Shown here in pieces: positions 1 through 50,852 of a stretch of DNA of 64,000 nt (position 1 is its first letter; the number at the start of each line of letters is the position of its first letter). Source of the DNA: Mesoplasma entomophilum (GTDB taxonomy: Bacteria; Bacillota_I; Bacilli_A; Mycoplasmatales; Mycoplasmataceae); NCBI RefSeq assembly GCF_002804125.1, contig NZ_CP024966.1, positions 1 to 64,000 of the forward strand. Direction: 5' to 3'. The notes under the pieces were generated by a model. It saw nothing but the letters and a program-made list of their open reading frames with translations. It made no database searches and was not told the origin of the DNA. The position numbers were made by a program, and so were the translations under genes.

Positions 1-1332
1 ATGGAAACAAAATTATTGTGAGAGCAAATAGTTAATAAACTAAGCAAAGAAAAATTGATAGATCAAGACATAGTTGAAGAATACATTGTAACTTCTGAAT
101 TATTAAAAATGTCTGATAAAGAATTTGTAATTCTTGTAAGATCAAATCTTGGTGTAACAATTTTAAATGAGTTTAAAGAAGTATTCATATATGAGTTTAA
201 AACACTATTAAATGATTATGTTTCTGTTGAGTTTTCAACAAAAGAAGTATTTGAGAAAATTAGTAAAAAAGAAGAAAAAAAGGAAAAATTAATTATTTCT
301 TTACCTGAGAATTCTTTAACATTTGATAATTTCATTGTTGGATCTAGCAATAAACAAGCAAATTTAGCTGCAAAAAGTGTTGCTGCAAATCCTGGTTCTT
401 CATTTAACCCATTATTCATTTATGGAGATTCTGGTTTAGGTAAAACTCACCTTTTACAGGCTATTAAAAATCAAGCACTTTTAAGTAATAAAAAAGTTTT
501 ATATTTAACTTCTGAAGAATTTACAAAAAAAGTTGTTAATGCTTTAAATAAAGGCGATTTAAACGAAATTGAGGAATTAAAAAATGAAATAAATTCTAAT
601 GATTTTTTTATTTTAGATGATGTTCAATTTCTTAGTAAAAAAGACAAAACAAATGAATTTTTCTTTAATATAATTAATAATTTTACTGAAAATGGGAAAC
701 AATTAGTTTTTTCAAGTGATAAAACACCAGAATTACTTAATGGTTTTGACAAAAGAATGATAACTAGATTTAACTCTGGTCTTTCAACACCAATTAATTC
801 ACTCGACATTCCTACAGCTAAATTAATAATTGAATGAGAAATAAAAAAACAAGGACTTAAGCAAAAAGTTAAAGAAGACGCAGTTGTTTATTTAGCTCAA
901 AATTTTAGCGATGATGTCAGAAAAATTAAAGGTTTAGTTAATAGATTATTATTTTTCGGTATACAAAATGATTTAGGACATATTATTGATTTAGAAGATG
1001 TTGTTGATTTATTCAAGGATACTCCTTCTGCTAATTTAGGTTTACTGAATGTTAAAAAAATAAAAGAAATTGTAGGGAAAAAATACGATGTTACATTAAA
1101 AGCTATTGATGGGAAAGCTAGAACAACAGCAATTAAAAATGCTAGACATCTTTCAATGTATTTTGCGAAAATAATTTTAAATCATACTTCTACTCAGATT
1201 GGCGCTGAATTCGGAGGAAGAGATCATAGTACTGTTTTAAGTGCTATTTCACGTATTGAAAAGTTGATTTATAAAGAAAAAGAATTTAAAAAAATAGTAG
1301 AGTCATTAAAAAATGAAATAATAGGGAAATAG
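1..1332 (+). CDS. dnaA: Chromosomal replication initiator DnaA
   Basis: DnaA binds DnaA boxes at oriC, opens the duplex and loads the helicase. The frame runs 443 codons from ATG at base 1 to TAG at 1330-1332 if TGA is Trp (for example codons 7 and 279). Visible motifs: Walker A GDSGLGKT at residues 142-149, Walker B ILDDV at 204-208, and the domain IV DNA-binding signature GGRDHSTVL near 405-413. Length is normal for the family. The poorly conserved N-terminus (about residues 1-100) fits domains I and II. The next gene is dnaN, the classic origin arrangement. Upstream sequence is outside the window. Confidence 0.97.
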
Positions 1333-47817: not shown

Positions 47818-47821
47818 AAAT

Positions 47822-47850
47822 AAAACTTTCGAAAGAAAGTTTTATTTTTT
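47822..47850 (+). terminator. Terminator after GH1 no. 3
   Basis: Stem AAAACTTTC (47822-47830), GAAA tetraloop, GAAAGTTTT (47835-47843), then a T-rich tail. Confidence 0.86.
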
Positions 47851-47860
47851 CTAAATCCTA

Positions 47861-47866
47861 TATAAT
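47861..47866 (+). promoter_or_regulatory. -10 box of the hpt transcript
   Basis: TATAAT at 47861-47866 predicts an RNA start near 47873, exactly at the left arm of the riboswitch's outer repeat. Confidence 0.55.
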
Positions 47867-47873
47867 TAATTCA

Positions 47874-47998
47874 TGTAATTAACAGTATTTGTATAAGCCA
47901 ATATAATGGATTGGTGTATCTACGGCTAAACCTATTTAGTCTCTATAAGTTACTGTTTAAACTTACTTGGATCTTTCATCCCAATTCTGTTAATTACA
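47874..47998 (+). promoter_or_regulatory. Purine (guanine-type) riboswitch before hpt
   Basis: The aptamer folds as a purine riboswitch: P1 47881-47893 with 47944-47957 (one bulged base), P2 47898-47902 with 47910-47914, P3 47924-47929 with 47936-47941. Loop L2 (ending GG, 47908-47909) and L3 (CC, 47931-47932) can form the kissing pairs. The core linker GTATCTAC (47916-47923) matches GUUUCUAC apart from one base, keeping the U at the ligand-contact position before the A-C. The key pyrimidine before the 3' P1 strand is C (47943), which specifies guanine or hypoxanthine rather than adenine. An outer perfect 12-bp repeat (47874-47885 with 47987-47998) competes with P1. Downstream are hpt and a purine permease. 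Confidence 0.88.
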
Positions 47999-48027
47999 CC
48001 TAGGTAAATTTATCGAAGGGGTTTATA

Positions 48028-48558
48028 ATGGAATTTAAACATAATTTGAAATTATTAATTTCTAAAGAGGAAATTGCAAATAAGATTGCAGAATACGGCG
48101 CTTTTTATAATGAAAAGTACAAAGGGAAAACACTTTCTTTAGTAACAATTATGAATGGCTCTGTATTCTTTTTTGCCGATTTTGCAAGAACGCTAAATAT
48201 GCCAATAAAAATGGATACCATAACAGTTTCTAGTTATTCAGGAACTAAATCAAATAAAGAATTGGTGTTTCATAAAAAAATAACAAAACCAATTATTGAA
48301 GATCAACATGTTTTAATTGTTGAGGATATTATTGATTCAGGATTAACTTTGGAAAAAGTATATGAGTATATATTTTCTTTGAAACCAAAATCTTTAGAAA
48401 TACTGACTTTAGCTTCAAAGAAAAGTAATCATAAGAACTTTAAATATGAATATAGAACTTTATTTGAAGTTCCAAACATATATGTTTTAGGTTATGGATT
48501 TGAAATTGATGATCTTTATAGACAACTTCCAGAAATTTATACTTTAGAGGAAGAATAG
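48028..48558 (+). CDS. hpt: Hypoxanthine-guanine phosphoribosyltransferase
   Basis: It salvages hypoxanthine and guanine with PRPP to give IMP and GMP. The 176-residue protein has VTIMNGSVFFFADFARTL near 40-60, the PRPP motif VLIVEDIIDSGLTL, and an ending typical of Hpt (VLGYGFEIDDLYRQLPEIY). Length is as expected. GAAGGGG lies 7 bases before ATG 48028. The purine riboswitch directly upstream and the permease 8 bases downstream form a coherent salvage operon. Confidence 0.95.
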   Translation: MEFKHNLKLLISKEEIANKIAEYGAFYNEKYKGKTLSLVTIMNGSVFFFADFARTLNMPIKMDTITVSSYSGTKSNKELVFHKKITKPIIEDQHVLIVEDIIDSGLTLEKVYEYIFSLKPKSLEILTLASKKSNHKNFKYEYRTLFEVPNIYVLGYGFEIDDLYRQLPEIYTLEEE

Positions 48559-48566
48559 GTTTTAAA

Positions 48567-50033
48567 ATGAAAAAATCAAAAATTGATAATTTTAAAGTTA
48601 AAGATAAAAAACTTAATTATTTAAAATCAACAAATTCAATTGCTAAATATTTTAACTTTAGTAATTTAAATACAACATTTAAAAAAGAGATTATTGGTGG
48701 AATAAGTACATTCCTTTCAATGATGTACATTTTATCAGTAGAGCCAGCAATATTAGGAAGTGCACCAAGTATTACTGGAAATGGGACAATGGATAGTAAC
48801 GGCGTTTTCTTGGCAACAGCTCTAGTTGCAGCTATTGCAACTATTGTTATGGGTATGAGTGCAAACGTTCCTATTGCATTAGCACCAAGCATGGGATTAA
48901 ATGCACTTTTTGCTTTTAACATAGCTAAAACAGGAAAAATAGGATATGAAGGTGCATTAATTGCCGCTATGATTTCATCAATTATTTTTTGTATTATATC
49001 TATAACAAAATTAAGAGCATTAATGATCAATGCTCTACCGCATTCACTTCATTTAATTATTGGTGTATCAATTGGTTTCTTTATAGCTTATGTTGGCATA
49101 TCAAACATAGGTTTTGTTTCAAAAACAGACTCAAATTTACCAATTGCAGATTTATCAAATTTTAAATTAAATTATCCTGGTATGATAATTGGTTCAATTG
49201 TTTTATTTGGTTCAATTATATTGTTTTATAAAAAATTCTTTGCGCCAGTTGCTGTAATGATGGTTGGTGGATTCATTGTTGCATTAATTTTAGCAAATAC
49301 AGTTGATAATGAAGCAATAAAACACTCACTAGGAAATGCTAAATGATCAGGAAGTGAATGAAACTTTGGGCACTTATTTAATGGATTTGCTTTAAACATT
49401 AAAAATTCATTAGCAGAAATAGGAAATTCTGAAATTTGAAATAAGCCAACCATGTATGTTTCAATTTTTGTTTTAGTTATTTTAAATTTCTTTGACGCAA
49501 CAGGTACTTTGACATCAATCAACATTGAATTAAATAAAGCACTTGGAGAAGAAAAACAAATACCTCAAAAAGCATTAATTATTGATGCAGGTGCAACAAT
49601 TATAGGATCAGCTTTAGGAGTTTCTCATATGGCTTGCTACAGTGAAAGTTGTGTTGGTATTTCACAAGGTGCAAGAACTGGATTTGCAAACATAATAACA
49701 GGTTTATTATTTTTACTAAGTATTCCGCTATTCCCACTTTTTAAAATGATGCCAAACTGTATTTCAGGAGCAGCGACAGCATTTATCGGAACAATAATGA
49801 TTTCATCAATTACTGAAATAGAATGAAAAAAACCAGAAATTGGAGTATCAGCGTTCTTTAGTATTTTGTTTATGGTTATAACTTACAATATAGCAAATGG
49901 TATTGCCGTTGGAATAATAGCATATACAGTCACATCTATTGGAGTTGGAAAAACAAAAGAAGTAAAACCTGTAATTTGAGCGCTAGATGTGTTATTTATA
50001 CTTTATTTTGTAGCAACAGCTTTTATACAATAA
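48567..50033 (+). CDS. NCS2-family purine (xanthine/guanine/hypoxanthine) permease
   Basis: The 488-residue membrane protein belongs to the AzgA-like branch of NCS2 transporters. It contains KEIIGGISTFLSMMYIL, FLATALVAAIATIVMG, NVPIALAPSMGLNALFAF and NFFDATGTLTSI, in the usual order, with about 12 hydrophobic stretches. The NALFAF and DATGT segments are hallmarks of guanine/hypoxanthine or adenine carriers. The frame crosses TGA codons (such as 49825). It shares the riboswitch transcript with hpt. Confidence 0.9.
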
Positions 50034-50061: not shown

Positions 50062-50730
50062 TTAGTAAATATTTTTAGCAACAGGATAAATAGTATAACA
50101 AACAACAGGTATTGTTGCTAAATAAATGGCCCAATCAAAAACTGAATTGACACTGTTTACACTCATTGAAAATATTCAAACATTTTGATTTTTTTCAACA
50201 GCACCAGCAGAGTAAAATAAAACACCTGCAAATGTTTTTGATCAAAACCCTAAGAAAGCATAAATTGAGATAACAATAATTCAAATACCCATTCATTTAA
50301 ATCAATCTTTTTTTTCTTCAAATCACAATTTATTTTTTTCTCTTTTAGACATTAATAGTTTTTTATTTTTAGAAACTTTCTCTTTTTTGTTTCTAAAATT
50401 TCTTGGTAAAAATATACTACAAATTGCTACCAAAAGTAATGGTATTCAATAATCAAATACATATGCTAAAGGTATACCTGCATCTGCATTTGTTGGAAGA
50501 AAGAAACCAATAATCCCTCCTAGTATTGCAACAATTAATGTTCTTAGTCAGTCAGTATATGTTGCTAAAACAAATATAGAAATTAATTTTATGTTTAACG
50601 ATAAATAAAACTGACTAAATGAATATGCTGTCATTAAATTCAAGATTAAGTATAAAGAAAGCATTAATCCCATTACAACAATGTCTTTAGTATTAATCTT
50701 TTTAACTTTCAAATAAAAATATCTTTTCAT
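50062..50730 (-). CDS. ThiT-like thiamine-specific ECF S component
   Basis: The 222-residue minus-strand membrane protein (ATG 50730, stop TAA 50064-50062) has about six hydrophobic segments. It starts KDIVVMGLMLSLYLILNLM, as S components often do, and includes AYVFDYWIPLLLVAI. A hydrophilic, Lys-rich loop sits in the middle. A TPP riboswitch directly upstream on the same strand identifies its substrate as thiamine or a precursor. The energising ECF module is not in the window. AGGAGG is about 8-13 bases before the start. Confidence 0.82.
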
Positions 50731-50769
50731 GTAAAAGAACCTCCTACATAAAAAGACAGAAAAAATATT

Positions 50770-50852
50770 TTAGGACTTCCTACGCTAGTATTAACTAGAT
50801 CAGGTTCTAAGAGTATTTCTCAAGCTTTCGCTACCTCTGCCTTCTTACAAGT
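50770..50852 (-). promoter_or_regulatory. TPP (thiamine pyrophosphate) riboswitch
   Basis: On the minus strand the 3' conserved block ACCTGATCTAGTTAATACTAG, immediately followed by CGTAGGAA, lies at about 50805-50777. The CUGAGA-type block appears as CTTGAGAAATA at 50824-50814. A GCGAAAGC hairpin precedes it. These are the conserved THI elements. It lies about 40 bases before the ThiT-like gene. High thiamine pyrophosphate is expected to reduce expression; the expression platform in 50731-50769 is not clear. Confidence 0.93.

Follow-up and report, generated by a model that had tools for sequence, protein, structure and literature searches.

In guanine-I riboswitches of the Bacillus subtilis xpt type (RF00167), the 3' strand of P1 couples the aptamer to a terminator. 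The add switch of Vibrio vulnificus is an adenine ON switch in which the 3' strand of P1 hides the Shine-Dalgarno (SD) sequence and the AUG, without an outer helix. The 2'-deoxyguanosine switch of Mesoplasma florum (2'-dG-I, RF01510) is built from four strands, P, A, T, and H, and its P:T helix is an antiterminator (PMC5838219). The same outer helix, PT, is named P0 in a second study (PMC12268651). Guanine aptamers conserve U22, U51, and C74 (PMC9295807), whereas 2'-dG-I aptamers have C at positions 22 and 51, with C51 as the selectivity switch (PMC8872408).

We analyzed a leader in the window, the whole stretch of 64,000 nucleotides from the single-contig genome G000 (847,966 bp). The sensor of this leader is of a known kind, and its wiring to the start codon through the 5' strand would be a variant. 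With the guanine-I type it has in common the junction architecture, the nucleotides U22, U47, U51, A52, and C74, and the association with purine salvage and transport genes; unlike the xpt type, it switches the 5' strand of P1 and has no terminator. The likeness to the M. florum 2'-dG-I switch (RF01510; PMC5838219, PMC12268651) lies in the three-way-junction purine aptamer, in a 5' strand P that chooses A (P1) or T (outer helix), and in similar kissing loops with an L3 shorter than the RF00167 consensus. However, the window pocket has U22, U51, and A52 in place of C, C, and G, the gene is hpt rather than ribonucleotide reductase, and the start codon is the predicted output in place of terminator strand H. 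In terms of the four-strand switch, P pairs with a downstream T and excludes the full P1, but there is no terminator into which T could be released with H. As in the add riboswitch, a purine aptamer would control translation by hiding the ribosome site. The preliminary description had pointed to M. florum; the organism is not M. florum L1, but the strand logic is that of the M. florum 2'-dG switch (PMC5838219). The features of the locus are as follows.

47821..47850, + strand: likely terminator of the upstream 6-phospho-beta-glucosidase gene, read directly as the hairpin AAAACTTT-CGAAAG-AAAGTTTT followed by ATTTTTT; the hairpin and U-run are absent from the consensus terminator scan output
47861..47866, + strand: -10 box TATAAT, from the sequence
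47873, + strand: predicted transcription start A, from the spacing rule of mapped M. florum starts
47874..47885, + strand: left arm of the outer helix, strand P, a perfect complement of 47987-47998 with covariation in 19 distinct leaders
47881..47957, + strand: guanine-class aptamer, from the RF00167 match and alignment
47881-47893/47944-47957, + strand: P1, from the RF00167 alignment
47897-47902/47910-47915, + strand: P2, from the same alignment
47924-47930/47935-47941, + strand: P3, from the same alignment
47894 (U22), 47917 (U47), 47921 (U51), 47922 (A52), and 47943 (C74), + strand: pocket, from the same alignment
47944..47966, + strand: strand A, 3' strand of P1, which takes up its own hairpin in folds once the outer helix forms
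47983..47998, + strand: strand T, of which 47987-47998 pairs with P and 47983-47992 with the start region
48015..48021, + strand: putative SD-like GAAGGGG
48026..48035, + strand: start region with the AUG, UAAUGGAAUU, putatively in the role of strand H through a 10-bp pairing with 47983-47992 in the P1 state
48028..48558, + strand: hpt, hypoxanthine-guanine phosphoribosyltransferase, 176 aa (TIGR01203, PF00156)
48567..50033, + strand: purine permease of the Xan_ur_permease family in the hpt operon (PF00860, 2e-28)

The purine model RF00167 matches 47869-47965 (+ strand) over its full length (1-102) with 42.9 bits at a gathering score of 37. The aligned core agrees with the guanine type proposed in the preliminary description: U22, U51, and C74 are at the ligand, and A52 is present as well. 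The 2'-dG-I model RF01510 scored 47.4 bits on the aptamer, under its gathering cut-off of 51, with an E-value better than that of RF00167; the better E-value is probably due to the short M. florum-type loops. We rejected the 2'-dG ligand class, as positions 22 and 51 are U and not C and the RF01510 score is under the cut-off. By its alignment, the window aptamer is a guanine pocket with 2'-dG-I-like loops. Grafting 2'-dG-I-type loops onto a guanine aptamer led to weaker guanine binding (PMC8872408). Going by the pocket nucleotides, the ligand of the hpt leader is most likely guanine or hypoxanthine. The hpt product itself matched TIGR01203 with 141.9 bits, just under the cut-off of 150, and PF00156 above its cut-off.

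Mapped M. florum starts lie 6-7 nt from the -10 box with A preferred (PMC7745072), and this rule together with the TATAAT at 47861-47866 places the predicted RNA start at A47873. The left arm of the outer helix therefore begins at +2, in line with its earlier placement at the predicted RNA start. The arrangement of TATAAT, exactly 7 nt, and TGTAATT is common to G000 and the related genomes G008, G012, and G011, and in G012 it is kept despite unrelated upstream DNA. A sigma70-like promoter match (TTAACA, 17 nt, TATAAT; 11/12) also occurs inside the aptamer at 47879-47907. It is likely incidental because M. florum -35 boxes are degenerate (PMC7745072) and its -10 overlaps the kissing-loop bases of L2, and an RNA start inside the aptamer is unlikely.

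The perfect 12-bp repeat reported to bracket the aptamer was confirmed, as 47874-47885 (TGTAATTAACAG) and 47987-47998 (CTGTTAATTACA) are exact reverse complements. The five bases said to be common to the left arm and the P1 5' strand (47881-47885) do lie within 47881-47893. In the AT-rich window, five perfect 12-bp inverted repeats with a loop of 80-130 nt were observed against about 3.3 expected, and a repeat of this kind is nothing unusual there on its own. A 12-mer in the leader tail complementary to the RNA 5' end appeared in only 6 of 200,000 shuffles (p ~3e-5), and the 127-nt leader folded 3.3 sd better than shuffled sequences. Across 19 distinct leaders of Mesoplasma and Spiroplasma, P:T was paired in 92% of cells; its covariation score was 0.405, compared with 0.160 for shuffled sets (0/500 reached 0.405) and at most 0.133 when the arms were slid. 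Cells with double changes numbered 35 against 14.8 in shuffles; pairs 1-5 are biased because the arms in this set were chosen by an end motif, TTACA or TTACG, and the double changes sit in pairs 6-12. In the Spiroplasma-type hpt leader of G030, the arms TGTAGTTAATAG and CTATTAGTTACA are paired at 12 of 12 positions through changed pairs. For 82 non-redundant purine and 2'-dG leaders, we also compared the P strand with the 50 nt preceding the SD without choosing arms. The mean z was -2.07, with 52% of leaders at p<=0.05, compared with +0.13 (7%) for the untranscribed upstream strand, -0.13 (5%) for coding sequence, and -0.28 (13%) when P was taken from other genomes. On this comparative evidence, the outer helix is a real, conserved RNA helix.

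We hypothesized, with moderate confidence, that the leader is a guanine/hypoxanthine-sensing OFF switch acting on translation of the hpt-permease operon. Strand P, the first nucleotides of the mRNA, would have two partners, either A (the P1 3' strand) or T, located about 30 nt upstream of the start codon. In the ligand-free RNA, P would pair with T, the aptamer would open, and the AUG would be accessible. With guanine bound, P would be held by A, and the freed T would zip onto the start codon, so that hpt and the purine permease would be expressed less. The sequence and its relatives show the aptamer, the P:T helix, and the strand that both use, and folding predicts the T:AUG helix. The ligand, the direction, and the translational output of the hpt leader are what we infer.

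The unconstrained fold of the leader contained P:T with A in its own hairpin and with P2 and P3 kept. In constrained folds, the P:T state had -48.6 kcal/mol and the P1 state -44.8 kcal/mol. Forcing the full P1 thus costs 3.8 kcal/mol at 30 C, and T (47983-47992) then shifts onto 48026-48035. The predicted unpaired probability of the AUG was 0.56 in the P:T state and 0.00 in the P1 state, and the G008 and G012 leaders showed the same folding behavior. The ligand-free advantage of P:T, 3.8 kcal/mol, has to be offset by ligand binding or by cotranscriptional trapping. In the growing transcript, the aptamer state was preferred up to about 120 nt, and P:T was ahead by 6.2 kcal/mol at 126-158 nt. 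Transcription of the start region shrinks this lead over the P1 state from 6.2 to 2.6 kcal/mol, indicating that the start region would play the role of H.

The preliminary description had P1 and the outer helix compete and regarded this competition as the expression platform. The competition holds through the P1 5' strand, but only the outer half of P1 conflicts with P:T. It is nevertheless effective in the folds, because P:T with a truncated P1, although possible, is about 7 kcal/mol less stable than P:T alone. As a platform, competition alone is insufficient and needs a third partner, for which the best candidate is the overlooked stretch 48026-48035. By shuffling, the T:AUG helix taken alone would arise by chance with a probability of about 0.03-0.1, and the predicted folds of G011, which has an hpt pseudogene, and of the Spiroplasma orthologue G030 lack it. 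As described earlier, a terminator is lacking; the scan found no terminator-like site between the aptamer and hpt. No rho gene was found in the window genome, where the weak matches were far under the cut-off and are probably ATP synthase subunits, and Rho-dependent control was set aside.

A second leader, about 3 kb from the hpt leader, bears on the predicted output.

50715-50852, - strand: TPP riboswitch leader of a ThiT-like gene, with the TPP riboswitch at 50760-50848

The P1 5' strand of this leader can pair with CUGUCUUUUUAU, located immediately upstream of the SD, and folding places the CUGUCUUUUUAU strand in an 18-bp hairpin with the start codon region. Among 30 non-redundant TPP leaders of the family, P:T had a mean z of -4.23, with 87% significant and a coding control of +0.20. 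When T was blocked, AUG access rose from 0.16 to 0.49, and blocking control stretches gave 0.15. From these folds, the genomes are predicted to use a translational switch between P:T and T:AUG as a type, and the same output at hpt thereby gains in prior probability. In both kinds of leader, the P1 5' strand lies close to the 5' end of the RNA, and its partner is a pre-SD strand that is otherwise the putative partner of the start codon; the TPP leaders differ in aptamer and ligand, and their start-codon hairpin is much stronger. In purine leaders generally, blocking T opened the start site no more than blocking another stretch, so start-site covering by freed T was unsupported as a rule for them. 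The absent effect fits terminator-type outputs in relatives such as G058.

Some 2'-dG and purine leaders carry the complementary arm past a complete terminator and near the SD. In L207 (G000:725726), the terminator is at +4..31 and the arm at +43..63; in L215 (G009:31005), they are at +2..31 and +41..62. In these two, in L212 (G009:668875), and in others, the 5' end of a 2'-dG-I-type leader forms about 18 bp with the post-terminator arm right before the SD. Since such an arm lies beyond a complete terminator, its helix comes too late to influence termination and would work on the completed mRNA. We lean, somewhat cautiously, towards a class-independent platform shared by the purine, 2'-dG, and TPP switches of Mesoplasma, Spiroplasma, and their kin, in which the 5' end of the transcript is the P1 5' strand and is complementary to a pre-SD strand, the post-terminator helix being a second layer on the finished mRNA. 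A literature search, which covered few subscription papers, found no description of a purine or TPP platform of this design in Spiroplasma or Mollicutes, nor of complementary arms placed after a terminator.

The arms beyond terminators would also suit a different, rather unlikely role at hpt, in which P:T seals the 5' end and locks the aptamer off, so that the ligand alters mRNA lifetime or commitment and not start access. In every Mesoplasma orthologue P sits at the very 5' end, which is consistent with this role, as is the general lack of T-dependent start-site access in purine leaders. However, the 5' end is largely paired in the P1 state too, so protection would differ little between the states, and the start-codon output is clear in the TPP leaders.

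It is less likely still that the leader is a transcriptional leftover which has lost an ancestral terminator strand H and now regulates little or nothing. In G058, the T arm makes up the upstream half of a terminator-like hairpin followed by a U-run, which would fit such an ancestor. By whole-genome search, this second hpt (in the cassette at 48028-50033 of the window) is a pseudogene in G011 (L071) and is absent from the Mesoplasma genomes G007, G009 (793,224 bp), and G010. Decay is difficult to reconcile with the comparison with G012, in which the leader is 96% identical whereas the 60 nt upstream of it are 52% and fourfold sites 74% (35/47) identical. The aptamer differences fall in pairs that are still paired or at the variable position 48. 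From 47978 to 48027 there are no base changes, and this stretch includes 47983-47986, which belong to the predicted T:AUG helix but lie outside P:T. The second hpt is about 66% identical to Spiroplasma copies, and the upstream flanks differ between G000 and G012. The riboswitch-hpt-permease cassette appears to have undergone loss or horizontal transfer.

The direction of the response could also be reversed. In such an ON switch, P:T upstream of the ribosome site would hinder initiation, and guanine would remove P:T and induce hpt. Induction by substrate is reasonable in a purine-salvage bacterium, and T ends 29 nt upstream of the AUG. We consider this improbable, as the predicted start-codon access runs the opposite way and repression of such genes is the known behavior of guanine switches (PMC9295807). 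That the repeat is a DNA operator or a chance repeat in AT-rich DNA with no RNA helix is very improbable and was ruled out, even though about three such 12-bp repeats are expected per 64 kb by chance, because the relatives' arms change compensatorily and through G-U pairs (as in G030), which preserve RNA but not DNA symmetry, and because the complementarity is specific to the transcribed 5' strand and missing from the untranscribed control.

If the proposed OFF switch holds, the link between a guanine-class aptamer and the start codon is made by capturing the aptamer's 5' strand, and one wiring serves two unrelated ligands 3 kb apart. Expression platforms would then be kept or re-evolved independently of the aptamer. 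The design would also offer a testable explanation of why leaders in genomes this small start exactly at P1. Judging from the post-terminator arms of relatives, a layer of control may be missing from published 2'-dG constructs, which stop close to the terminator or carry a substitute for the native 5' end. The published M. florum 2'-dG template begins at ATGAATATAAAAG, displacing the native 5' ...ACAACTGAATATAAAAG (PMC5838219 compared with L213), and in L213 the native 5' ACAACTGAATATAAAAG would pair with the post-terminator arm ATTTAGTTG. The window genome contains five further 2'-dG-I-type aptamers (725726, 683520, 413261, 832283, and 538139), four of them over the cut-off, and some precede guaA and lipoprotein genes.
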